Assembly (NCBI GenBank): GCA_016280595.1
Contig: JAEEHB010000014.1
Span: forward strand, 1-38,064
Origin: Clostridiaceae bacterium
GTDB taxonomy: Bacteria > Bacillota > Clostridia > Oscillospirales > Acutalibacteraceae
Direction of reading: 5' to 3'
Length of the DNA stretch: 38,064 nucleotides
Position numbers and translations under genes: made by a program. Below are positions 3,908 through 37,750 of the stretch, in pieces. The number at the start of each line of letters is the position of its first letter. The stretch's first letter is position 1. The notes under the pieces were generated by a model. The model saw only the letters and a program-made list of their open reading frames with translations, did no database searches and was not told the origin of the DNA.

Positions 3908-6900
3908 ATGAAGATACTCAAAAAAATTTCCGCAATACTGCTGTCGGCGGCGATGATTTTCACCGCATTCCCCGTTGCCTTTGCGGGCAACAGCGCCGAC
4001 TATGCAAACTCAGACTGTGAAGGTTACTTCGACGGTCTGTTTTACTGCGCCGGAAATGAAAAAGACCCCCGCGCCTACAGAGAAACCGCGATAGACGAAA
4101 ACAGGGAATACCTCACCTCGTATGCCGTTGACAGCGTTGCCCTTTATGACGGATATCTTTACGCGGGCACGGGCACCTCACTCAGAAGAATAAATATTGA
4201 CACTCTCGCCGATGAGAAAGTGTATGACTCTCGCGCGGGGATAGACGCGTTTGCCCTTTCCTGCTCAAAAGTCTATATGCTCATAAACGGCAGTGTTGTA
4301 AAACTTAATGAAAAAGACGGCTCGCTCACTACCGCCGTCGCCTCGGGCAAAATCACTTCCTTCTGGTTTGAGAGCGCGAATATGCTCTGCTATATGACCG
4401 ACGAAGAGATGATTTACTACTACAATCTTTTCAGCGGAAAGACTTCTCAGGAGAAAAACAACGCTACCGACCTCGGCGATTATATACCGCTTTACGGCTC
4501 GCAGATTCCCTCCGGCACCACAAACCCGGAGGCTATGGGTCTCGGCTCCCTGCAGGGGAAATTCCCCGCCGGCAGATACTGGAATCACGGCTCGGGCGCA
4601 AATAATCCCGACGGCACCACGGGCACAGGCTGCTACCACCACAGCGGCAACTGCGATTACGGCGGTTCCTGCGGCTGTAACTCCTTCCTCTCCGCCATCC
4701 AGTGTATGGGCTACGCCTACAAGTGCGGCTACGATGTTTACGGCACCTACCCCACGGGCTGGTCAAAATCAACCTCGTCCTCCTCGCTCAACAACGTCAA
4801 GGCGGGCGATGTAATCAGATACAGAAATGACGGCCACTCGATTTTCGTTACGGGTGTGAGCGGCAACACGGTCTATTTCACCGACTGTAACTGGGACGGC
4901 CACTGCGGCATCCGCTGGGGCGCCTCCGTCACAAAGTCAACCCTCAAGAGCAGTTTCACTAGCCTCAGGAGCGCTCCCTATGAAGCGCCCGGTGGCGGCA
5001 GTCCGCAGGTTACATACACCATCACCTTCAACGCAAACGGCGGCTCAGTTTCGCCCTCCACCGCGCAGTATAAGGGCGGCGACAAATACGGCGACACTCC
5101 CGTGCCCGAGCGTGAGGGCTATGATTTCCTCGGCTGGTTTACCGACGCGCAGGCAGGCACTCAGATTAAGGCCGACGACAAAGTCAGCGCCTCAATCACC
5201 GTTTACGCTCACTGGCAGTTAAAGACCTACACGGTGACCTTCGATAAAACGGGCGGCAACTACGCGCCCGCAGATTTCACCATAGATTATTTCTCGAGCA
5301 AGGTTATCGAAAACGCCAAAACGCCCACGAAAGAGGGCTACACCTTCGTGTGCTGGAATACCGCCATTGACGGCAGCGGCACCTCGTATAAACCGGGTGA
5401 CAGATACAGCGCGCACGAGAGCGTAACCCTTTACGCGATATGGAAAGGCAAGAGCATCCAGATTCACTTTGACCCGAACGGCGGCTCTCTTACGGGCGCG
5501 AGTTACAAGGCGGTCACTTACGGCGATCCGTTCGGCGAACTGCCCGTACCCGTGCGCACGGGCTACACCTTCAAGGGCTGGCATCTCGGCTCGGCAACCG
5601 GTGAACTTGTAACGGAAAACACCATTGTAAATATCTCCTCATCACAGCGTCTTTACGCTTCGTGGGAGGAAACCGTATATACAGTCACATATAACGCAAA
5701 CGGCGGCGAAAACGCCCCCGCTCAGCAGACCAAAACCTACGGCAGAATAATCACGCTCAGCAGCACAATACCCGTAAGAGCGCACTATACTTTCACCGGG
5801 TGGTTTACCTCATCCGCAGGCACGGGCACGAAATATGACCCGGGCGACACTTATTCCGACAATGCGGACATCGTGCTTTACGCGGGCTGGGAGGGTGACA
5901 AGTACACCATCACCTTCAATCCGAACGGCGGCACGAATCCTCCGGCAAACGCGACCAAGACTCACGGCACCGACCTTACGCTGCCCAAAGACGTGCCTTC
6001 GATGACGGGCTTCGACTTCGTCGCCTGGAATACCAAGCAGGACGGCACAGGCACTTCCTACAAAGCGGGCGCAAAATATACAAAAGAAGGCAACGCAACG
6101 CTCTACGCCATCTGGGAAGTGGCGAAGTACAGAGTAACTTATGATGCCTGCGGCGGCGAAAACGCCCCCGAAACCCAGGTTTTCATCTATAATTCATCCA
6201 CTGTTATTACGGATAAAGTCCCGTCAAGGACAGGCTTTGATTTCATGGGCTGGTTCACTCAGCCGGACGGCGGCGGCAGGCAGTACACTGCAGGCGAAAC
6301 TTACGCCGAAAACGCCGACCTTCCGCTTTACGCCTGCTGGCAGAGGGAGAGATACGCGGTCACCTTCAATCCCGGCGGCGGCACAGGTCAGCCCACAAAT
6401 CAGTATAAAGAATACGAACTTGATTATACCGTTCCCGACACAATTCCCGTAAGGCCCGGCTACAGATTTGACGGCTGGCGCACTTCAGCGGGCGCGGAAT
6501 ATGCTCCCGGCGATGTCTATAAAGAAAACGCTCCGCTCACTCTTTACGCGCAGTGGACAGCCGAAACCTACATGGTAACCTTCAATTCAAACGGCGCGGG
6601 AATTGCCGAAACGAGGGCGCAGTACACTTACGCAACGCTCTACCCGGCTCTGCCCGAACTGCAGAGAAACGGCTACACCTTCAAGGGCTGGTTCACACAG
6701 CCTTCGGGCGGCTCGCAGATAAAAGAGGGCGGCAGGGTGTCAATCACCTCCGATTCCGTCTTCTACGCGCACTGGAGCGCAAACACTTACACGGTTACAT
6801 TTAATCCCGCGGGCGGTCAGTGCTCGGAGAGCGAAAAGACCGTCACCTACGGCAGCGCTTACGGCACGCTTCCCGCGGCCTCAAAGCAGGGTTATTACTT

Positions 6901-8458
6901 CGCAGGCTGGTTTGACAAAGACGGCAGGCAGATAACCGAAACATCGAAAGTTGATTTTTATCAAAGCGGCGAGGTGCTCACGGCAAAATATGTTGCAGGC
7001 ACCTATACCGTGATTCTCGACCCCGCAGGCGGCACCTGTGACACCGTAAGCCTGCAGAGAAATTATACCGAAAAGCTCGGCACTTTACCCGTGCCCGTAA
7101 GGAGCGGCTGTGAATTCACAGGCTGGCAGACCTCGGGCGGAGTGACTGTTACCTCCGATTACGCGATGCCCGGTCACGACCTTACTCTGCGCGCTTCGTG
7201 GCGGCCTGCTTCCGCCCCCTCGGGCGAAAACCCGGACAGCAATCACACCCTCACCTGGAGAGCAGGGGAGAGCGAGATAAAAGAGACATATTACTACGGT
7301 CAGGATATTGAGATTCCGAAGTTTGACATACCCGCCGGCTACACCGTAAGCGGCTACGATAAAGCCGTGCCCGCCCGTATGCCGGACAGCGACCTTGAGA
7401 TTACAGCCGTGATAACGCCCGTCGAATACACAGCCGTATTCATTGACGGCGGCTCGCTCTGGGCAAAGGAAACCTACACGGTTAAATCGGAATCGCTTCC
7501 TTCTCCCGCGCTTCCCTCAAAGGACGGCTACACCGTTTCGTGGGAGCAGAAAGCACCCGCGCCCGGCGGAGTAAGCGTGCACGCGGTTTACACTCCCGTT
7601 ATCTACACCGCGACCTTCTTCGCCGACGGCAATCAGGTGAAGCAGGTACAGTTTACGGTTGAAGACGATTTCATATCCGAGCCCGCCGTGCCGGCAAAGA
7701 AGGGCTACACGGGTCACTGGAGCGATTATTCGCTCATACCCGGCGATATCACGATAAACGCTGTGTATGACCCCAACACCTACACGGTCACCTTCTATAA
7801 CGCGGGCAGCGTTTACGCGACGGTAGATTATGTTTACGGCGCGAAGTCGATAACCGAGCCCGCCTTCCCGCACAAAGAGGGCTACAACGGCAGATGGTCA
7901 ACCTACACGCTCGGCCCGCAGGATACCGTTTCGCACGCGGTATATAACCCGATTGAATACACAGCCACCTATATGGTTGAGGGCACGGTGCTCGCAAAGG
8001 TTAAATTCACGGTTGAAAGGCCGCCCGTTGAGCCGCCCGTACCTCCGCGCACAGGCTACTTCGCAAAGTGGAATCCCTACACGCTCACGGCGGCGGATAT
8101 CACAATCACCGCGAAATACATACCGAATTCCACCGTAATTATCCTCAATTACACGCAGAAGCGAGAAATAGATTATCTGACCACAATCACCCTGCGCTCG
8201 TTTGTGTCAAACGCGCCCGACGAATATGAAATTCACTGGTTTGTCAACGGGCACGATGAGGGCACGGGCAACGGCGACGGCACCTTCACCATGAAGGAAG
8301 CGACAGGCGATTTCGAGATATACGCGGTCGTTTATTCGGACGGCGAGTATTCCGACCCGAGTCAGACGGAGACCGTTGATGTAAACACGGGCTTCTTCTC
8401 GCGGATAAAGGGTTTCTTCCGCAGACTTTTCAGAAGACCGCACGTAATCACACAGTAA
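3908..8458 (+). CDS. Giant secreted protein: CHAP/NlpC-like cysteine hydrolase domain plus InlB-type repeats
   Basis: 1516 residues. Signal peptide 1-26 (ending PVAFA); a region with propeller-like strands (about 30-200); a cysteine hydrolase-like domain (about 205-355) with candidate nucleophile Cys257 (CGCNSF), general base His310 (DGHSIFVTGV) and polar third residue in DCNWDG. This layout fits CHAP or NlpC/P60 amidases that cut peptidoglycan peptides. Then come ten repeats of about 73 residues of the Listeria-Bacteroides/InlB B-repeat type (TYTVTFNxxGG...GYxFxGWFT...LYAxW; about 368-1090), five shorter repeats of about 58 residues (YTxTFxxxG...GYxxxWxxY; to about 1407) and a C-terminal module (1408-1516) ending GFFSRIKGFFRRLF. 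No LPXTG motif, so the tail may hold it at the surface. An adhesin or wall-remodelling role is inference. Confidence 0.85.
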   Translation: MKILKKISAILLSAAMIFTAFPVAFAGNSADYANSDCEGYFDGLFYCAGNEKDPRAYRETAIDENREYLTSYAVDSVALYDGYLYAGTGTSLRRINIDTLADEKVYDSRAGIDAFALSCSKVYMLINGSVVKLNEKDGSLTTAVASGKITSFWFESANMLCYMTDEEMIYYYNLFSGKTSQEKNNATDLGDYIPLYGSQIPSGTTNPEAMGLGSLQGKFPAGRYWNHGSGANNPDGTTGTGCYHHSGNCDYGGSCGCNSFLSAIQCMGYAYKCGYDVYGTYPTGWSKSTSSSSLNNVKAGDVIRYRNDGHSIFVTGVSGNTVYFTDCNWDGHCGIRWGASVTKSTLKSSFTSLRSAPYEAPGGGSPQVTYTITFNANGGSVSPSTAQYKGGDKYGDTPVPEREGYDFLGWFTDAQAGTQIKADDKVSASITVYAHWQLKTYTVTFDKTGGNYAPADFTIDYFSSKVIENAKTPTKEGYTFVCWNTAIDGSGTSYKPGDRYSAHESVTLYAIWKGKSIQIHFDPNGGSLTGASYKAVTYGDPFGELPVPVRTGYTFKGWHLGSATGELVTENTIVNISSSQRLYASWEETVYTVTYNANGGENAPAQQTKTYGRIITLSSTIPVRAHYTFTGWFTSSAGTGTKYDPGDTYSDNADIVLYAGWEGDKYTITFNPNGGTNPPANATKTHGTDLTLPKDVPSMTGFDFVAWNTKQDGTGTSYKAGAKYTKEGNATLYAIWEVAKYRVTYDACGGENAPETQVFIYNSSTVITDKVPSRTGFDFMGWFTQPDGGGRQYTAGETYAENADLPLYACWQRERYAVTFNPGGGTGQPTNQYKEYELDYTVPDTIPVRPGYRFDGWRTSAGAEYAPGDVYKENAPLTLYAQWTAETYMVTFNSNGAGIAETRAQYTYATLYPALPELQRNGYTFKGWFTQPSGGSQIKEGGRVSITSDSVFYAHWSANTYTVTFNPAGGQCSESEKTVTYGSAYGTLPAASKQGYYFAGWFDKDGRQITETSKVDFYQSGEVLTAKYVAGTYTVILDPAGGTCDTVSLQRNYTEKLGTLPVPVRSGCEFTGWQTSGGVTVTSDYAMPGHDLTLRASWRPASAPSGENPDSNHTLTWRAGESEIKETYYYGQDIEIPKFDIPAGYTVSGYDKAVPARMPDSDLEITAVITPVEYTAVFIDGGSLWAKETYTVKSESLPSPALPSKDGYTVSWEQKAPAPGGVSVHAVYTPVIYTATFFADGNQVKQVQFTVEDDFISEPAVPAKKGYTGHWSDYSLIPGDITINAVYDPNTYTVTFYNAGSVYATVDYVYGAKSITEPAFPHKEGYNGRWSTYTLGPQDTVSHAVYNPIEYTATYMVEGTVLAKVKFTVERPPVEPPVPPRTGYFAKWNPYTLTAADITITAKYIPNSTVIILNYTQKREIDYLTTITLRSFVSNAPDEYEIHWFVNGHDEGTGNGDGTFTMKEATGDFEIYAVVYSDGEYSDPSQTETVDVNTGFFSRIKGFFRRLFRRPHVITQ
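8129..8455 (+). other. C-terminal Ig-like module and amphipathic tail (shared with the 35.3 kb protein)
   Basis: Encodes residues 1408-1516 of the InlB-repeat protein. It matches the C-terminus of the protein at 35318-37750 along its length: VIILN/VIIIN, IHWFVNG/IRWFKNG, KEATGDFEIYA/TKATSGFRVQA and SQTETVDVNTGFF/SQEESVGVNGGFI, then an aromatic-basic amphipathic tail. A strand-rich Ig-like fold is inference. Confidence 0.7.
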
Positions 8459-8465
8459 AAGACGC

Positions 8466-8510
8466 AAAAAAGCGGCACAGTCAGTTGACTGTGCCGCGCT
8501 TTTTATTTTA
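8466..8510. terminator. Bidirectional terminator
   Basis: A perfect 12-bp stem GCGGCACAGTCA / TGACTGTGCCGC with a two-base loop (8472-8497). It has an A run on the left and CTTTTTATTTTA on the right, so it ends the convergent genes on both strands. Confidence 0.93.
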
Positions 8511-9926
8511 TCAGCCCATCGCGTCCGTCACATAGATTGTGTAGTCGCCGAGGTCATTTGAATACTCGTATGTTTCGGTATAGCCGGGGTTAAAATACAT
8601 ATTGAGGGGCTTGTAGTAATAGGGAAGAAGTTCCATATTGTCGGGCACCTCATAGGTCCTTGTAAGGTTTACGGTGTTGAAGTTATCGTCGTGAAGTTCG
8701 GCAACCACCGTCACCTTGCGAAGAGGTCTGTCCCATCCGTCAAGCACGCCGTAATCAACGGGCTCTTCGCCGTAGGTGAATACGGTCCTGCTGCTGTCGT
8801 CATCCATATCGGCAACGATTTCTTTAATCGCCAGCGTACCCTTGTCAACGGTATAAACGGGCACAAGGTTTTCTTCATAATACTCTTCTTCGCTTCTGCC
8901 CATATAGAAACTGTATGTGCCGTCCTTTTCCTCGAGGTCGGTCACGGCGCCGTAAACAATCATTTCGGAGATTGTGTAATTGAAGAAATATGAGAAACTC
9001 TCGCTGTCGCTCTCGAGGTCAAGGTATTCGTAAGAGCAGAGGTATGCGCCCGGCTCGCCCGGCATACCGCCCATGAGAGTGAAATCTCTTGAGCCGTAAA
9101 CGCCGTCAAGGCTGCCCGTGCCGCCCTGCGTGAATTTTGCTACGCAGGCGATTTCGCCGTTTTTCCTGAAGAAATACTTTTCATAATTCTTTTCGCCGTT
9201 GAAGTAGTATTCTTCCTTTACCGAGCCGTAGATATTCAGCAGGTTTTCGAGCGTATTTGCCTCGCGGAGCATCTCATAGTCGAAGTTTGCCTCGCTCTCG
9301 GTCGCGCCCTGCACTTCGGGAAGGCTCATTTCCTTGAGCACATAGGGGAATTCGCCGCCTACCGCCTCGTCCTTTTCGAAGGTGAATACATATTCTTCGT
9401 TTTCGCCGTCTTCGTTTGTAAGCACCACTTTCACCTTATCGCCGTCAAGGGCGGTGAGAGAGGGCTTGAGGGCTTCTGTCATTTCCTTGTAATTTTGCGT
9501 AAAGCCGGGGAAGGACCAGACTATTTCGCCGCCTTTGTCCTCGGTTGTCACGCTGCTGCCCACCCAGTTGTCGGGTATGGGCACATATTCGCCGCTCGCT
9601 CTTAGCGCGTGCTGAAGGGCGTAAACCTGAGTTGTGGTAAGCCCGCCGTCTTCGCCGTTTGCCTCACGCCAGCAGGAAAACCAGCCGATGGTATTCCAGA
9701 GCACGGAGGCGGAATCAAGGTATGAGGGGTCGTCAAAAAATCTCATACCGAGGGCGAGAGCAGTTGAAATGCCGAAAACCGCGTCTTCAAAACTTTCCGG
9801 TCTTTCAACCGAGTCCGAAAGCGAGGTTTCTTCGGGCTTTTCCGCAGGTTTATTGCCGCAGGCGGAAAGCGCGCCGAGAATAAGCACGGCGCAAAGGATA
9901 AGGGAAAGCGCTCTTTTTGTTTTCAT
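8511..9926 (-). CDS. Lipoprotein of unknown function
   Basis: 471 residues. A type II signal peptide with lipobox LSAC (lipidated Cys23) is followed by a short Pro/Glu linker. The mature part is acidic, starts with a helical segment (about 40-120) and continues with strand-rich Tyr/Glu/Asp sequence including EYYEENLVPVYTVDKGTLAI, reminiscent of beta-barrel-like lipoproteins. I do not recognise the family. It is the second gene of a two-gene operon, 23 bases after the transglutaminase-like lipoprotein, with a good GAGGTG ribosome binding site. The shared transcript suggests work at the outer face of the membrane beside that enzyme; this is inference. Confidence 0.8.
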   Translation of the reverse strand: MKTKRALSLILCAVLILGALSACGNKPAEKPEETSLSDSVERPESFEDAVFGISTALALGMRFFDDPSYLDSASVLWNTIGWFSCWREANGEDGGLTTTQVYALQHALRASGEYVPIPDNWVGSSVTTEDKGGEIVWSFPGFTQNYKEMTEALKPSLTALDGDKVKVVLTNEDGENEEYVFTFEKDEAVGGEFPYVLKEMSLPEVQGATESEANFDYEMLREANTLENLLNIYGSVKEEYYFNGEKNYEKYFFRKNGEIACVAKFTQGGTGSLDGVYGSRDFTLMGGMPGEPGAYLCSYEYLDLESDSESFSYFFNYTISEMIVYGAVTDLEEKDGTYSFYMGRSEEEYYEENLVPVYTVDKGTLAIKEIVADMDDDSSRTVFTYGEEPVDYGVLDGWDRPLRKVTVVAELHDDNFNTVNLTRTYEVPDNMELLPYYYKPLNMYFNPGYTETYEYSNDLGDYTIYVTDAMG

Positions 9927-9949
9927 ATCTGTTCACCTCATATTTTTAA

Positions 9950-11413
9950 TCAGGTGTAAAACTTCAGCGTGAGATTATCAGGGTCGTTATTGTATTTTAC
10001 CATCTTGCGTCCGGTGATTGCCCTTATGCAGTCCGTCAGTTTGCCGAAATCCGCGGCGGCAGCCTGATAGGCATCCGCATTAGTGAATTTAAGGTAGATA
10101 ACGGCGTTGTTTTTCTGCTTATCAATCACGGCGGCGGCGGTGTCATAATCGTAGGAATCAAGCACACAGCCCGTTTTTGTGAAATATGTCATTGCCTCGC
10201 TGGTAGCGTCGGGGTAGGCGTAATCGTTGCCGAAAACGTGATCTTTTGACATCTGCTTTTTCGTGATGCAGAAGTAATCGTAGTCGGTTGCAACGCCGTC
10301 GCCGTCATCCCAGGTGACATCCATATAGTAATATTCACCGTTTACTTTTATTATATTCCAGGCGTGATTCTGATTCTGACTCTTGCCCACAACCTGACCG
10401 CACTCGTAGCCGAGCTCGTGCATAATATAGACAAAGGCGCTCGCGTAGCCGTCACATACGGCCCTGCCGCCTACAAGCGCTCCGTAAGCGCAGTGGGCAA
10501 GCTGATAGTCGGGGCCCGTAAGCGCGCCGAAATAGGAGGCGTTGTTGTATTTGACGGTGTCGCACAGATAATCGTGAACATATTTGATGCGCTCAAAATC
10601 GGTTGAGAATGCTCTTGCCTCACCCGCGATTTTCTTCGCCTTTATCGCAATCGCGCTCTCCTGGCTTGCGCCGTTGTCCGTGCCGCAGAAACTGCAGAGT
10701 TTGAGCGTGACGGTGAAGTCAACCTTGCCCGAGTAGGGCGAATACTTTGTGGAAAAAGCGCGGTCAAGGCGGCAGTATTCGGGGTAATCATAGCAGAAAG
10801 CGTAAACAGCCTGTGCTATCACATCATTGTCAAATTCATTCTCGGGCACGCTCATTGAAAACGAGTTGCCGCCCGCCGCGACGGATTTATACAGCAGCGC
10901 GTACATCTCTTTCTGCCGCGAGTTGAGAAGTTTATAGCAGAAGCGGTTTGCAAAATTGCCCGTCTGCGCTGAGGATTCCTGCTTCGCAGTGGTTGAGGGT
11001 TTTGCAGTAGTTGACGGCTTTGTGGTCGTCGTCTGTTTCGCAGTAGTAGTAACGGGTTTGGTCGTAGTCGTCTGCTTCGCCGTTGTCGTAACGGGTTTTG
11101 TTGTTGTGGTTGCCGCGGCAGTCAGCACGGCGGAAGTCGCGGAGGTGTAAGAGGTGAGAGCGCTCGTTTCCGCAGGCAGAGTGCTTTCCGTAAGAGAAGT
11201 TTCCTCCTCTGTAATGCTCGCCGTTTCCTCCGTAAAATCTTCGTAAGTAAATTCGCTTTCGTCACTTATCACTTGAGAAAGCGTTTCTGTTTCGCTTAAA
11301 GTGACATCGCCGCTTTTCTCACCCGAAAAGCAGGATGCGAAAGTAAAGAGCAGCGCAAACACAATCAGCACCGCAAGAGCGGGCCTCGCGCCTTTTTTCA
11401 TTTTATATAACAT
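9950..11413 (-). CDS. Transglutaminase-like lipoprotein with Thr-rich stalk
   Basis: 487 residues. Lipobox FASC (Cys28), then an acidic Ser/Thr region and a threonine/lysine stalk (about 100-145) with tandem TTTKPVTTTAKQ units. A transglutaminase-like (papain-fold) core lies at about 270-375 with the triad Cys320 (GGRAVCDGYA), His350 (NQNHAWN) and Asp365 (YYYMDVTWDD), so the active site is intact. Members act as proteases or cross-linkers; bacterial secreted forms are poorly known. The start is the first ATG, eight bases after GGGAGG. It leads an operon with the lipoprotein at 8511. A second transglutaminase-like protein sits at 35318. The stalk probably carries the domain through the wall. 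Confidence 0.9.
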   Translation of the reverse strand: MLYKMKKGARPALAVLIVFALLFTFASCFSGEKSGDVTLSETETLSQVISDESEFTYEDFTEETASITEEETSLTESTLPAETSALTSYTSATSAVLTAAATTTTKPVTTTAKQTTTTKPVTTTAKQTTTTKPSTTAKPSTTAKQESSAQTGNFANRFCYKLLNSRQKEMYALLYKSVAAGGNSFSMSVPENEFDNDVIAQAVYAFCYDYPEYCRLDRAFSTKYSPYSGKVDFTVTLKLCSFCGTDNGASQESAIAIKAKKIAGEARAFSTDFERIKYVHDYLCDTVKYNNASYFGALTGPDYQLAHCAYGALVGGRAVCDGYASAFVYIMHELGYECGQVVGKSQNQNHAWNIIKVNGEYYYMDVTWDDGDGVATDYDYFCITKKQMSKDHVFGNDYAYPDATSEAMTYFTKTGCVLDSYDYDTAAAVIDKQKNNAVIYLKFTNADAYQAAAADFGKLTDCIRAITGRKMVKYNNDPDNLTLKFYT

Positions 11414-11454
11414 AAAGGATTCCTCCCGGATACAGTTCTTTGTTACATTATATT

Positions 11455-11482
11455 ATTATAGCACAGGCGCGCGGTAAAATAA
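11455..11482 (-). promoter_or_regulatory. Probable promoter of the lipoprotein operon
   Basis: Minus strand -10 TATAAT (11455-11460), with a second TATAAT at 11447-11452. The -35 is poor (TTATTT, 16-base spacer), so the exact promoter is uncertain. Confidence 0.4.
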
Positions 11483-11510
11483 AGACGCTTTTTTAACACT
11501 TCGTAACAAA

Positions 11511-20779: not shown

Positions 20780-23248
20780 ATGATAAGGAAGACGCTTTCA
20801 TTTGTTATTGTTTGTGCATTGATTATTTCATCGCTTTGTCTTTCGTCAATTATGGTTAATGCCACGACATACAAAGTCGGTGATATAGTTGAATTTGGCA
20901 GTTATCCTCAAAGCAGGGTGACCGATGAGGAATTACTTGCCGAATTAAATGAACTCGATTTGGTTTGGCAATCGTTTTCCGATTATTATTATGGCACTGG
21001 CTCGGAAGGGACAATGATTGAGTCAGACTATATGAGATTTGCAAATGCAGAAATCGAAAACGAAAGATATTGTGCTGTCTATTTTACAAAATATAGACCG
21101 AGCCCTACTTATTACGAACCAATATCTAGATATTCACTCCAGGATGAATGCGGTTATTATACTGGCGAAACATATTGGTTTAAATATGAACCTATAAAAT
21201 GGATTGTTCTTGACCCAATCAACGGTCTTATGATTACACAATCTATTATTGATGGTCAGCCATATTGTAATAATATGTACAAAGTTTACATTTCATCTTA
21301 TTACAAGTATGGTTCAGACCCAAACGTTAGAATACCTTGTTATCAGTATTCAACAAGTGATATTAGAAAATGGCTTAACAATTCATTTTATGAAAGAGCT
21401 TTTTCATTAAATGAAAAGCAAAAACTAACGCTGTTTAATTCTGATGAAACTATCCCATACGAAAAAGTCAGTATTCTAACCCGCTTTGAGATCAAAGACG
21501 GATATGGTTTTAATTCTGATTTGTCCAGGAAAGCCATTGGTACCGATTATGCTTATTGTAATGGCTTGACTGTTGATATATATAATTATTCACCATATTT
21601 ACTTGCTAGTCCAGGTAATACTGAATATAATTGTTCAAGTGTAACTAAGGAAGGAGTAATAAGTTTAAATGAAACTCTTACTGCGAGTGTTTGTGGAGTA
21701 CGCCCAATAATCAAATGCTCAGAGATAACAAGTAATTCTCAGCACGAGCATAATTATAAAAAAACTGTCATTGAATCAACATGTACTGAAAACGGATATA
21801 CAGAATATAAATGCTTTGCTTGTGGCGATACCTATACAGACGAATATGTTAATCCTTTAGGCCATGATTACAAAGAAAGAATTACTCAACCGGCTACTTG
21901 TACCGCGGAAGGATTGAAAACATTTAAATGCAGCAGATGTGAAAAGAGTTTTACGGAAGTGATAGAGCCGACAGGCCATAAACCGACAACTGTTGTAATC
22001 AAAGAGCCTACTTGTACAGAACCCGGAACATCTTATGAAATGTGTTCGGTGTGCGAGGAAAGGTTAAGTGAGAACACTGAAATCACCTCAACAGGCATCC
22101 ACTCCTGGAAATATTCAACCGACAAATACACCATTACTGCTTCCTGCGAAAAATGTGACGAAGAGTTTTCGGTAACGGCAGTTCTGCCCGAGGTTTTGAA
22201 ATGTTCCGACACTCCGAAGGCAATCACGCTTGATGGCGAAGTTCCGGACGGATTTGTTACGGATATTATCTATGAAACCGAAGACGGACAGGCGCCGAAA
22301 AAAGCAGGCAAGTATACCGCTCACGTTTACCTCAGACCTGATGATTTATCCGATGTTATTCTTGCAAGTATAAATATTGAATTGAATATCGAGCACGACC
22401 TGACAAGTTACAGCGGAAAAGAAGCAACCTGCACCGAACCGGGCTATGAGCCTTATGAAGAGTGCAGTTATTGCGGATATACAACTTACTCTGCTATTCC
22501 CGAAAAGAATCACGATTATTCATTCTCTTATGTGTGGTCGGATGACGGTAAGTCCTGTGTAGCAACGGCAACCTGCGCAAATGACGAAAATCACAATTTC
22601 AGCGAAGAGGCTGAAATAAGCAGTGCAGTCAAGGCCGCGCCGACATGTGAAGAGGACGGCACAACAACTTACACAGCAACATTTATCAATGAATTGTTTG
22701 AAATCCAAACGAAGGATGTTAAAGACATACCGGCTTCAGGTCACGAGTACACAGCAAAATATGAATGGTCTGCCGACGGTAAATCCTGCGTGGCGACGGC
22801 GACTTGTGCTAAAGACAGTTCACATACATTCAGCGAAATCGCAACCGTAAGCAGTGCGGTAAAAGAAAAGCCGACCTGCACCGAAAAAGGCACAACCACA
22901 TATACCGCCGCTTTCAACAACAAGTTTTTCTTTGGTCAGACGAAAGATGTGGAAGATATTCCCGCGACCGGACATAACGCAGTAACGGTTCCCGCCAAAG
23001 AAGCGACTTGCTCCGAAAAAGGTTTAACCGAGGGCTCGCGCTGCTCCGTCTGCGGTAAAATTCTTGTTGAGCAGAAAGAAACGCCCGTAATCGATCACAG
23101 CGATGCCGACAATAACGGCTACTGTGATATGTGCAAGCAGATGATGACAGGCGGAAATCACTGTGTTCACTGCGGTCAGATTCACACGGGATTCTTTGGC
23201 GGAATAATTGCTTTCTTCCACAGAATAGCACATATATTCAGCCGATAA
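20780..23248 (+). CDS. Secreted DUF6273 protein with cysteine-pair repeats
   Basis: 822 residues. Signal peptide (1-28), a DUF6273-type domain (about 30-313; VGDIVEFGSYPQS, EPIKWIVLD, SDIRKWLNNSFY, SPYLLASPGN, GVRPIIKC), then repeats with CxxC pairs of the kind ATCTExGxxxYxCxxCG...GH (about 322-440 and later). Two tandem copies of a 79-residue unit (CVATATCA...YTATF...GH, about 577-735), a final zinc-ribbon-like NHCVHCGQIH and a tail TGFFGGIIAFFHRIAHIF. DUF6273 is common on Clostridia surfaces, function unknown. The 5' half is strikingly A+T-rich while the 3' half matches the genome. The ribosome binding site AAAGGA is good, but no clear promoter is seen. Confidence 0.85.
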   Translation: MIRKTLSFVIVCALIISSLCLSSIMVNATTYKVGDIVEFGSYPQSRVTDEELLAELNELDLVWQSFSDYYYGTGSEGTMIESDYMRFANAEIENERYCAVYFTKYRPSPTYYEPISRYSLQDECGYYTGETYWFKYEPIKWIVLDPINGLMITQSIIDGQPYCNNMYKVYISSYYKYGSDPNVRIPCYQYSTSDIRKWLNNSFYERAFSLNEKQKLTLFNSDETIPYEKVSILTRFEIKDGYGFNSDLSRKAIGTDYAYCNGLTVDIYNYSPYLLASPGNTEYNCSSVTKEGVISLNETLTASVCGVRPIIKCSEITSNSQHEHNYKKTVIESTCTENGYTEYKCFACGDTYTDEYVNPLGHDYKERITQPATCTAEGLKTFKCSRCEKSFTEVIEPTGHKPTTVVIKEPTCTEPGTSYEMCSVCEERLSENTEITSTGIHSWKYSTDKYTITASCEKCDEEFSVTAVLPEVLKCSDTPKAITLDGEVPDGFVTDIIYETEDGQAPKKAGKYTAHVYLRPDDLSDVILASINIELNIEHDLTSYSGKEATCTEPGYEPYEECSYCGYTTYSAIPEKNHDYSFSYVWSDDGKSCVATATCANDENHNFSEEAEISSAVKAAPTCEEDGTTTYTATFINELFEIQTKDVKDIPASGHEYTAKYEWSADGKSCVATATCAKDSSHTFSEIATVSSAVKEKPTCTEKGTTTYTAAFNNKFFFGQTKDVEDIPATGHNAVTVPAKEATCSEKGLTEGSRCSVCGKILVEQKETPVIDHSDADNNGYCDMCKQMMTGGNHCVHCGQIHTGFFGGIIAFFHRIAHIFSR
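23186..23245 (+). other. C-terminal amphipathic tail of the DUF6273 protein
   Basis: Encodes TGFFGGIIAFFHRIAHIFSR, the third local example of a GF-F-xx-I-xx-FF-xx-[LI] ending also found on the proteins at 3908 and 35318. Here the preceding Ig-like module is absent; a zinc-ribbon-like segment takes its place. Confidence 0.6.
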
Positions 23249-34662: not shown

Positions 34663-35187
34663 ATGAAAAAGTCACTTTCGATCGTGCTTGCAGTAATCTT
34701 TGCTCTTGCGGCAATCTTTGCTCTCACATCACTTGCGTTTGCAGATGAAACCACAACTACCACTACAACCACTACCACAACCACAACCACCAAAGCTGCT
34801 GAAACCAGACCGGCAGCCGGCAGAGATGACACCACCACTTCCACAACCAAGGCTGATGCAACTGCTACCACCGCATCCACAACAGTTAATGCTGACCTGA
34901 GCAAAGCTCTTGATTCTCTTTCAAGCGCAGTTGACAACATGAGCACAAAAGCAACTCTCCCCAACACCCCGACCAAAGATACTGCCGAAACAGTTACCAA
35001 TGCTCCCGGCGTTACCGCTTTTGTAAATGACGATACCACTGCACAGGCAGGCACCACCAAGACCGCCGCTCCCGTTAACACCTATGTTCCCAAGACCGGC
35101 AGTTCCTATGCTATCCCCGCAGTTGCTGTTCTTGCCCTTCTCGCAGGCACAGTAGCCGTTGTAGCAGTTAAGAAGAACGAAGACTGA
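34663..35187 (+). CDS. Poly-threonine surface protein with LPXTG-like anchor
   Basis: 174 residues. Signal peptide (1-27, ending LAFA), a run of 14 threonines (30-43), Thr/Ala-rich stretch, a short helical segment (about 77-95, LSKALDSLSSAVDNM), another Thr-rich linker, then VPKTG (142-146), a hydrophobic helix (150-169) and KKNED. The end is laid out like a sortase signal, with Val for Leu in LPXTG. No sortase is in the window. Thr-rich runs usually carry sugars or act as stalks. Encoded by mixed ACA/ACC/ACT codons. The -35 TTGACA (34598) and TATAAT (34626) are 22 bases apart, so the promoter is imperfect; AAAAGGAA precedes the ATG. Confidence 0.8.
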   Translation: MKKSLSIVLAVIFALAAIFALTSLAFADETTTTTTTTTTTTTTKAAETRPAAGRDDTTTSTTKADATATTASTTVNADLSKALDSLSSAVDNMSTKATLPNTPTKDTAETVTNAPGVTAFVNDDTTAQAGTTKTAAPVNTYVPKTGSSYAIPAVAVLALLAGTVAVVAVKKNED

Positions 35188-35317: not shown

Positions 35318-37750
35318 ATGAGGACAAGAAAGATTATCGCCGTGATTCTCAGCATACTGTTTGTTCTGTCCGTTTTCCCGGTGGCGGCATCGGCGCAGAG
35401 TGCACCGGTTGACAAAGCAGTGCTCATCGACATTAAAGACCGCATTTTCAATGCGATTTATGATGAAAACACTCAGGTTGTTGACGGAATAATCGAACTG
35501 GATTTAAGAGATCTCGGTATTCCGGCAAACAGAACGATAATATCTTATATTTCGAGATATATTAACACAAGCGGCTCCCTTTTCGCCTGCAGAAACAGTT
35601 TTTCAGTTTATTCAAATAATGACATTGTCACAAGAATTGCTGTCAAAGCGAAAACCACTCCGGCGCAGAATAAGGCGATGCTCGAGCAGTGCGAGGTGGC
35701 AATGGCTTCCATCCTTTACGGAGTGAAAGGCAACACCTCTCTTTCCGACGCCGACAAATGCCTCATCGTTCACGACAGGCTCTGCGTATGGTGCGAGTAT
35801 GATTATGCAAATTACCTCAAGGGTAATATTCCCGATGTTTCATACACCGCTTACGGCGCGCTCGTTAACCGCATCTGCGTTTGCGACGGCTACACACTCG
35901 CTTACGGCTGGCTGCTTGAACAGCTCGGCATAGAAACGGAGTATGTCGATTCTGAAACGCTCGGTCACTCCTGGGTTAAGGTCTTTATTGACTCCGAGCC
36001 TTATTTCATTGACCTCGCTTTTGACGACCCCGTTTGGGATATCCCCGGCAGGGTTCTGCACTCGAATTGTCTGATTTCTTATTCGAGATTTGCTTCGCTT
36101 CATAACAGCGCTTCGGACTATGACACCGATGTGCCCTCAACGAAGTATGACAATTATTATCCGCAGGGCTCGGATACGCAGGTGCTTACCATAGGCGACG
36201 CAGTTTACTACTTGCGCGATTCGGCGGTAAATCCCGACAAATGCGCCCTTGTAAAAAGGGACGCGGCGGGCGAAGCGGAAGTGTTACTTCTTGACAAAAC
36301 ATATTCCTATCAGTCCGGCGCATATATTTATTCATTCAGCGCGAATCACAGAATTCTCAATATCGGCAATGAAATAATCTACACCATGCCCAGAGAAGTC
36401 CGCTCATACAACACCGCGACGGGCGTTGATAAATTAATCTACACCCCCACCTCAGCCATTTTACGCGGAGTTGATTATATTCTCAGCGGTATGAAACAGA
36501 TTGACGGCGAAATCTATGTGACCTCACAGCAAGGCCCGAATATTTACACCGACAACAGCAACCCCGACGGCTACGCGGCTATGATGGCCCGCAACACAGA
36601 GCACTTCACCTACTGCACTCACACCGACCGCGAATCCGAGATTTACGAATCGGTTGACTGCACTCAGAGCGTGGAAGTTATAATGGTCTGCAAGGCCTGC
36701 CGCAAAGCGGAAAAAGAAACAATTCAGGGTATGGACCATCAGTTTGAATGGACCGTAACCAGGGAGGCGAAGTGCGGAGTTGCCGGCGAGGAAACTCAGA
36801 TTTGCTCCGTATGCGGTGCTCACGGCCTTACGCAGGATATTCCCGCCCTTGAGCATAGTTACGGCTGGGTAACCGTCACCGAGGCAGACTGCGGCGCACC
36901 GGGTCTTAAGCAGTACAAATGCTCACTCTGCGGCGATATCAGCGACACGCAGGAAATCCCCGCTCTCGAGCACGATTATTCGATTACCTACACCTGGTCT
37001 AAAGACAAATCAACCTGCACCGCGCTTGCCGTATGCTCTCACAATTCCTCTCACACCGTAAGCGAGCAGGTTAATTCAAGAGTTGACACACAGAATCCCT
37101 CCTGCACAAAGCCCGGCGAGAGCGTTTACACCGCAACATTTACAAACGCTCTGTTTGAGGAAAAGACCGAAACGGTCCCTCTGCCCGCAACGGGTCACCA
37201 CTATAACGAGCAGATTATAAGAGAAGCCACCTGCACCGAAGACGGTGAGAAGAAACTCACCTGCCCGGACTGCGGCGATGAAAAGACCGAAACGATACAG
37301 CACACAGGTCACAGTGCATCGTGGAGGACTTCCGTTCCCGCAACAACCGAGAGAGAGGGCACAGAGGAATACTACTGCCCGAAGTGTAAGCAGGTGCTTG
37401 ACACAAGAACAATCCCCAAAACTCCCGTAATCATAATCAACAACACCTCCCACAGCGGCTCATCCGTTGACTACAAATCGACGGTTAAATTCACCGTCTC
37501 CACCGTGAATATGCCCGGCGACGCCGTGATAAGATGGTTTAAAAACGGCAGCCCGACAGATAAATACGGCGAGAGTTACACGGAGACAAAAGCAACCTCA
37601 GGCTTCAGAGTACAGGCGAAGATAATCAGAGGCAGCATCGTGCTCGCCGAAAGCCAGGAAGAGTCAGTAGGGGTTAACGGCGGGTTTATACAGATACTTA
37701 TAGCGTTCTTCAGGCAACTCTTCGGTAGCCTGCCCGTCGTCGACTGGTAA
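35318..37750 (+). CDS. Secreted transglutaminase-like protein with CxxC repeats and C-terminal module
   Basis: 810 residues. Signal peptide 1-26 (ending AASA). A transglutaminase-like core (about 140-240) with triad Cys189 (ICVCDGYTLA), His217 (LGHSWVKV) and Asp232 (YFIDLAFDD). A strand-rich region of about 180 residues (TQVLTIGDAVYYLRD, a DUF5050/propeller-like stretch). From about 430, cysteine-pair repeats (CSVCG, CSLCG, CPDCG) and one copy of the unit CTALAVCS...YTATF...GH that also occurs twice in the protein at 20780. Residues 701-810 form the C-terminal module and tail GGFIQILIAFFRQLF. No LPXTG. With the lipoprotein at 9950 this makes two transglutaminase-like proteins at the surface. 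Confidence 0.87.
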   Translation: MRTRKIIAVILSILFVLSVFPVAASAQSAPVDKAVLIDIKDRIFNAIYDENTQVVDGIIELDLRDLGIPANRTIISYISRYINTSGSLFACRNSFSVYSNNDIVTRIAVKAKTTPAQNKAMLEQCEVAMASILYGVKGNTSLSDADKCLIVHDRLCVWCEYDYANYLKGNIPDVSYTAYGALVNRICVCDGYTLAYGWLLEQLGIETEYVDSETLGHSWVKVFIDSEPYFIDLAFDDPVWDIPGRVLHSNCLISYSRFASLHNSASDYDTDVPSTKYDNYYPQGSDTQVLTIGDAVYYLRDSAVNPDKCALVKRDAAGEAEVLLLDKTYSYQSGAYIYSFSANHRILNIGNEIIYTMPREVRSYNTATGVDKLIYTPTSAILRGVDYILSGMKQIDGEIYVTSQQGPNIYTDNSNPDGYAAMMARNTEHFTYCTHTDRESEIYESVDCTQSVEVIMVCKACRKAEKETIQGMDHQFEWTVTREAKCGVAGEETQICSVCGAHGLTQDIPALEHSYGWVTVTEADCGAPGLKQYKCSLCGDISDTQEIPALEHDYSITYTWSKDKSTCTALAVCSHNSSHTVSEQVNSRVDTQNPSCTKPGESVYTATFTNALFEEKTETVPLPATGHHYNEQIIREATCTEDGEKKLTCPDCGDEKTETIQHTGHSASWRTSVPATTEREGTEEYYCPKCKQVLDTRTIPKTPVIIINNTSHSGSSVDYKSTVKFTVSTVNMPGDAVIRWFKNGSPTDKYGESYTETKATSGFRVQAKIIRGSIVLAESQEESVGVNGGFIQILIAFFRQLFGSLPVVDW
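37418..37747 (+). other. C-terminal Ig-like module and amphipathic tail, second copy
   Basis: Residues 701-810. Starts KTPVIIINNT and includes VIRWFKNG, TKATSGFRVQAK and SQEESVGVNGGF. It aligns with residues 1408-1516 of the InlB-repeat protein at nearly equal length (110 versus 109) and with the same order of blocks. Confidence 0.7.

Follow-up and report, generated by a model that had tools for sequence, protein, structure and literature searches.

The CTERM signals (PEP-CTERM, GlyGly-CTERM, MYXO-CTERM) and LPXTG are, in the accessible parts of their descriptions, C-terminal signals on many unrelated exported proteins of one genome. In Bacteroidota, the C-terminal domain (CTD) of Type IX secretion is Ig-like and guides the secreted proteins that bear it to attachment at the surface; it is not known to contain an amphipathic helix. 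A different mode of attachment is described for PBP5 of E. coli: its last 18 residues are reported to form an amphipathic helix that binds the membrane and is needed for localisation, which is spoilt when the helix is removed (PMC2909392). PBP5 (DacA) and PBP6 (DacC) are exported proteins whose last ~18 residues form an amphipathic helix with the pattern G-x-F-F-x-[KR]-[ILV], and the tails reported here are alike in these features. The anchor of PBP5 and PBP6 serves a few related enzymes of the Gram-negative periplasm, whereas the tail occurs on numerous Clostridial surface proteins that are unrelated to one another, and its helix is often found between an Ig-like carrier domain and a strand.

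The window, the whole stretch of 38,064 nucleotides that was analysed, originates from a gut or rumen bacterium. Three exported proteins with the tail are encoded on its forward strand, each with a signal peptide recognised by eye. The first (3908..8458, 1516 aa) contains 13 InlB/List_Bact repeats (Flg_new; Pfam PF09479, E 8.5e-146, 13 stretches) and ends with a module of 109 residues directly before the stop codon (8129..8455, +). Translation, homology and AlphaFold2 characterise this module as a predicted Ig-like domain followed by an amphipathic helix and a short strand; its tail reads GFFSRIKGFFRRLFRRPHVITQ (8390..8455, +), and the predicted helix covers module residues 89-100 (8393-8428). 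The second protein (35318..37750, 810 aa) is transglutaminase-like, with a match to NF045980 of NCBIfam at E 4.7e-10 and 38.5 bits against a cut-off of 450. Its last 110 residues before the stop codon (37418..37747, +) are, on the same three lines of evidence, a module of the same composition, with the tail GFIQILIAFFRQLFGSLPVVDW (37682..37747, +) and the predicted helix at module residues 90-101 (37685-37720). The third protein (20780..23248, 822 aa) is DUF6273-like, although Pfam PF19789 remained with 21.7 bits (E 2e-4) under its cut-off of 23.5. The first-pass annotation had assigned to it the tail without the module, and this was confirmed: positions 23186-23245 encode TGFFGGIIAFFHRIAHIFSR up to the stop codon and match the annotated pattern, with the tail GFFGGIIAFFHRIAHIFSR (23189..23245, +) placed behind a CxxCGxxHT element and without an Ig module. 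A second transglutaminase-like protein (Transglut_core) is encoded on the reverse strand at 9953-11413. It is a lipoprotein with the lipobox FASC and a Thr-rich linker and lacks the tail, and it is a paralogue of the tail-bearing protein at 35318-37750 (35 of 100 residues identical). The two paralogues of the window show a swap: one has a lipobox and no tail, whereas module and tail are present in the other, which lacks a lipobox. Adjoining the tail proteins, a small Thr-rich exported protein (34663-35187, +) ends in VPKTG, a hydrophobic stretch and lysines, a signal of the sortase type.

The alignment of the two long C-termini, proposed from the sequence by the first-pass annotation, was reproduced by BLASTP over almost the full length, with 35 of 107 residues identical and an E of 6e-14 for the pair. 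Six-frame searches of the whole genome of the window with the first module found the second with an E of 3.4e-10 and another copy, on contig C46, with 2.1e-7; the second module as query yielded further copies on contigs C35 and C63. AlphaFold2 was run twice, once for each window module together with its relatives, and predicted for both an Ig-like sandwich, a helix of 12 residues and then a strand of three residues, with a mean pLDDT of 92.5 for the module at 8129 and of 92.6 (pTM 0.81) for the module at 37418. The best PDB matches in Foldseek were Ig domains, on top Dscam1 (E 9.2e-4, TM by query 0.62). The predicted fold is that of bacterial and eukaryotic Ig-like domains (Ig_3, I-set and Big families), but neither window module reached the cut-off of any Pfam or NCBIfam model. 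Ig_3 (PF13927) scored 19.1 bits for the 37418 module against a cut-off of 30 and did not match the 8129 module, and among 65 aligned modules at most three touched any one Pfam family at 0.01. With the Type IX CTD, compared by general description, the module shares the Ig-like domain at the C-terminus of secreted proteins, but it was found in MAGs of Clostridia.

In the family, a profile built from five modules had matches in 8 of 150 genomes, among them the genome of the window. The module occurred at six places in the latter, at 32 in the sister genome G015, at 11 in G014, six in G087, five in G148, three in G145 and at one place each in two others. Sixty of the 65 places were retrieved, one of them from the genome of the window. 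The first-pass annotation had asked whether profile matches are always C-terminal, and this proved correct for 58 of the 60 copies, in which the protein stops at most 31 residues past the match; one copy lay at a contig edge and one was internal. The one clear internal tail was seen in locus L239 (ORF 6494-11506), where module and helix are located 298 residues before the stop and are followed by another repeat region. With the tail profile at 9 bits or more, 819 ORFs, many from loci retrieved via the tail itself, presented 121 tails at C-termini and two internal ones. A pattern scan of named genomes confirmed 82 of 370 stretches, representing at least 79 loci, in MAGs labelled Ruminococcaceae, Oscillospiraceae, Clostridiaceae, Clostridiales or Clostridia; the sources, where stated, were rumen, omasum, duodenum, horse faeces and reindeer. 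The loci L166-L244 were retrieved by a pattern inside the tail, thus tail counts there are partly by construction and the distance to the stop and the signal peptides are the informative features. Profile A6 has its rows from the genome of the window, G015, G145 and G148, and these rows match by construction. Viral contigs contained 101 pattern stretches, among them no relative.

The tail is not bound to the module. Its recurrence in the genome of the window exceeds chance: the tail profile, which was partly built from them, detected ten tail ends there, among them a contig-edge fragment on C63 and one in an ORF of 91 residues on C46, besides a degenerate one on C55. Module-free tails were present there in the DUF6273-like protein and in ORFs on C5, C46, C48 and C60. 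The simple DNA pattern for the tail is weak by itself, since it occurred at 67 places of this genome against 34 for the reversed control, and only a minority of the places coincide with the end of a long ORF. A profile of the 20-residue tail matched 40 of 250 family genomes at 0.01, with up to 34 matches per genome. From genomes not already read for the module a second set of 60 places was collected; ten rows were dropped as not C-terminal, too short, located at a contig edge or broken by stops. The remaining 50 tails were C-terminal, and 45 of them, from 21 genomes, had no Ig part at E 0.01; the other five, all from G423, had one. Upstream of the second-set tails we observed linkers rich in Gly, Ser, Pro and Glu, a CxxCGxxHTGFFG element, a Big_2 domain or nothing recognised. 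A spread beyond the family is doubtful: at E 0.05 the class-wide tail search had matches in 49 of 196 genomes, with small ORFs accounting for many of them, but outside the family only G215, G313 and G244 reached 0.001. In the last 30 to 45 residues of L323 and L351, CxCH-like motifs precede the helix and CxCGxxH-like motifs follow it, an arrangement reminiscent of a metal site that keeps the two ends of the helix on the same side. This bracketed CxCH...CxCG tail had no match in the 196 class genomes, a set without positive control.

The carriers are diverse. Among 20 carrier proteins scanned with Pfam, three of them without any match, those with the module contained LRR_5, DUF6273, Flg_new, Big_3, CHAP with GBS_Bsp repeats, or papain with a lectin-like domain; one carrier of G423 combined DUF6273 with lipase_3. 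Module-free carriers had LRR_5, Peptidase_S9, purple acid phosphatase, BNR, pectate-lyase-like, Big_2 or Cthe_2159 domains. In two module proteins of G015, L132 on contig C63 and L136 on C73, Pfam recognised a ubiquitin domain (E 4.6e-30 and 5.5e-30) that directly follows the signal peptide and is succeeded by GLUG repeats and the module. Their ubiquitin sequence, which we take to be very close to eukaryotic ubiquitin, suggests a capture from a host or from a protist of the rumen.

Signal peptides were identified with a simple rule of our own, not with SignalP. Only ORFs with a closed 5' end were counted, which removed 27 ORFs with tail and 124 without; the rule assigned a signal peptide to 85 of the 94 remaining tail ORFs, compared to 186 of 574 other ORFs. 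In the second set it was 39 of 43. Whether tail proteins always carry a signal peptide, a further question of the first-pass annotation, is thus answered in the affirmative by this rule for the large majority, while the remainder had no call. Several proteins (L107, L126, L137, L230, L231 and others) share an odd stretch behind the hydrophobic core of the signal peptide, within the first 50 residues, e.g., GGDGFAELLDLLSVKA or GGEGFADALGTLFDALSVRASA. An FFxxxxxFF-type helix was located at the N-terminus instead of the C-terminus in L067, L038 and L167:4303-6282; these may be unusual signal peptides or N-terminal anchors. An LPXTG-like motif was absent from the last 60 residues of all tail ORFs of the local set, as already noted for the window proteins. 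A strict lipobox occurred in none of 86 tail ORFs with signal peptide and in 13 of 158 ORFs without tail, polytopic proteins being dropped (Fisher p 0.005); this p value is post hoc, because the rule was tightened after loose hits had shown further cleavage sites, and at least one of the 13 tail-less ORFs looks spurious. The looser rule revealed no difference, with 11 of 86 tail ORFs and 30 of 158 others (p 0.28).

The physical character of the helix was evaluated on 114 of 115 distinct module tails; the degenerate copy on C55 of the genome of the window was left out. The hydrophobic positions are nearly fixed, while the polar ones vary and favour Lys and Arg. Mean hydrophobic moment was 0.561 with a peak at 100 degrees, the mean charge near +2, and 4.7 aromatic residues were counted per 16. 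Segments with the same pattern elsewhere served as control, because the search pattern itself favours amphipathic matches; these 2017 16-mers had a mean moment of 0.251 and a charge near zero, and 29 of them reached the mean of the tails. The transmembrane threshold of 1.6 on a 19-residue scale was reached by 11 of 114 module tails and by one of 50 second-set tails; the window transglutaminase-like tail at 37682 has 1.68. Most tails are too polar or too short for spanning a membrane. Ten module proteins of G015 (L124, L127, L130, L131, L132, L134, L135, L136, L139, L150) have a cysteine as last residue; lipidation or a disulfide is possible.

A profile of the 45 module-free tails recognised the PBP5 anchor with 15.1 and the PBP6 anchor with 12.1, with a background maximum of 10.3 over 13,332 positions in 41 proteins. 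A mixed set of 53 tails, some with Ig part or not counted as C-terminal, ranked the E. coli anchors in the same order. With the module-tail matrix only PBP5 exceeded the background (10.0 versus 7.0), and PBP6b was not recognised at its anchor by the module-free-tail profile or in an earlier comparison. HMMER local scoring with the module-tail model gave 0.7 bits for the PBP5 anchor and -2.3 for PBP6. The relation to PBP5 and PBP6 is a likeness of design and not homology, because of this HMMER score for PBP5 and the failure with PBP6b. Peptidase_S11 had no match in 25 tail proteins scanned with Pfam. We do not count the tail as a member of the PBP5 family. The D,D-carboxypeptidase (Peptidase_S11) of the genome of the window was considered as a possible bridge to PBP5 and rejected, since its C-terminus is a transmembrane helix and the tail is absent. 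The first-pass annotation knew of no described system with this ending: this holds in so far as the window modules exceed no Pfam or NCBIfam cut-off, and has to be modified by the resemblance of the helix to the PBP5/PBP6 anchors in the partly accessible literature. A full-text literature search, with results seldom beyond the openings of abstracts and most subscription journals outside its scope, provided no published name for the tail.

The modular C-terminal cassette on exported proteins is real. By analogy, the tail probably acts as an in-plane amphipathic membrane anchor, PBP5-like in action and used as a portable retention signal. Retention is favoured because the tail is C-terminal, exported, amphipathic and modular, resembles PBP5/PBP6 and is free of a lipobox by the strict rule; in addition, none of the three enzyme families compared below tracks it. 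The first-pass annotation had offered sorting, membrane retention or secretion as the role of the shared C-terminus; its conservation on unrelated secreted proteins was established, and retention is the best fit of the three. After export through the signal peptide, the last 15 to 25 residues would fold into a short helix. The aromatic and aliphatic face of this helix would lie in the outer leaflet of the cytoplasmic membrane, the lysine/arginine face would meet the phospholipid head groups, and the protein would thereby be kept on the cell and not released. In the two long window proteins the Ig-like domain would be the stalk that bears the helix, and the short strand behind the helix may return to the Ig domain, so that both helix ends would be outside. 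Membrane insertion, orientation and retention are inferred. Against an anchor stands the presence of sortases in the same genome, and the need for a second anchor is unexplained.

Rather unlikely, in our estimate, is a structural or docking role outside the lipid, in which the helix caps the Ig domain or binds a helix of a surface partner such as a scaffold or an S-layer protein. AlphaFold2 predicted the helix, and then the strand, with confidence in both models, so that the helix could pack its hydrophobic side against the Ig domain, and an LPxxxQ-like end recurs behind the helix in the main group. The docking or capping helix is disfavoured because module-free tails exist: tails also follow flexible linkers, cysteine-rich elements and unrelated domains, and the Ig part is missing from the great majority of the second set. 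Among the module copies the tail was better kept than the Ig part, with a mean identity of 50 versus 30 per cent and a higher tail identity in 1130 of 1275 pairs. In the 293 of 1275 pairs with an Ig part less than 20 per cent identical, tail identity still averaged 47 per cent, which also disfavours this role. The preservation of hydrophobic positions with variable polar ones also speaks against a docking surface.

We regard it as improbable that a specialised enzyme recognises the tail, cleaves close to the helix and ligates the protein to a different carrier, on the model of LPXTG/sortase, PEP-CTERM/exosortase, GlyGly-CTERM/rhombosortase and MYXO-CTERM/myxosortase. As far as the accessible descriptions go, the tail is like these signals in its C-terminal place and in its occurrence on numerous exported proteins of a genome that are otherwise unrelated; a genome-wide use on many proteins, here up to 34 tail matches, is typical of such systems. 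The terminal cysteines in G015 would also fit, as would a rhomboid match (G015 C63, 70280-70687) that starts ~300 bases past the stop of the ubiquitin-bearing module gene L132. Unlike CTERM and LPXTG signals, however, most tails lack the tripartite arrangement of a signature motif, a transmembrane stretch and a basic end. An alignment of 51 rows had no invariant column, and only three phenylalanines reached 90 per cent or more. The first-pass annotation had asked for linkage to a particular membrane enzyme, and among sortase, rhomboid and CPBP none was found in the comparison of 35 genomes. Sortase and CPBP were near-universal, each present in all 20 genomes that have the tail and in 14 of the 15 that lack it, with four sortase matches in the genome of the window, while rhomboid was present in few (4 of 20 and 2 of 15). 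A pairing of the tail with one of these families was rejected, as their presence does not separate tail from tail-less genomes; a protease that tracks the tail was not among the three.

Two further explanations have very little probability. The aromatic, cationic and amphipathic composition would suit a membrane-active peptide directed against other cells, freed by proteolysis or presented by the surface protein, but large adhesins and enzymes bear the tail in a fixed place at their very end, no conserved cleavage site precedes it, and a single genome can have it on tens of proteins. A likeness of the two window proteins solely by common ancestry of one Ig repeat, with a tail of no special role, would agree with the frequency of Ig-like domains in surface proteins and the weak touches of the module on Ig_3, PKD_3 and Big_7, and is contradicted by the better conservation of the tail (1130 of 1275 pairs) and its occurrence without the Ig part.

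The anchor reading can be extended to the whole secretome, which we propose tentatively, as possible rather than probable: an enzyme-free surface-retention code of rumen and gut Clostridia, in which the Ig-plus-helix cassette and the module-free helices would keep adhesins and hydrolases, tens of them in each genome, lying flat on the outward face of the membrane, with both helix ends outside by means of the return strand or paired cysteine motifs. The carriers are devoid of LPXTG and, when the strict rule is applied, also of a lipobox, hence the retention of these proteins on the cell needs explaining. If true, the tail would represent a general class of protein anchoring beside LPXTG, lipoproteins, SLH and CTERM tags. 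The tail is recognisable, and annotators could use it as a simple localisation rule, in some genomes calling tens of proteins cell-bound.
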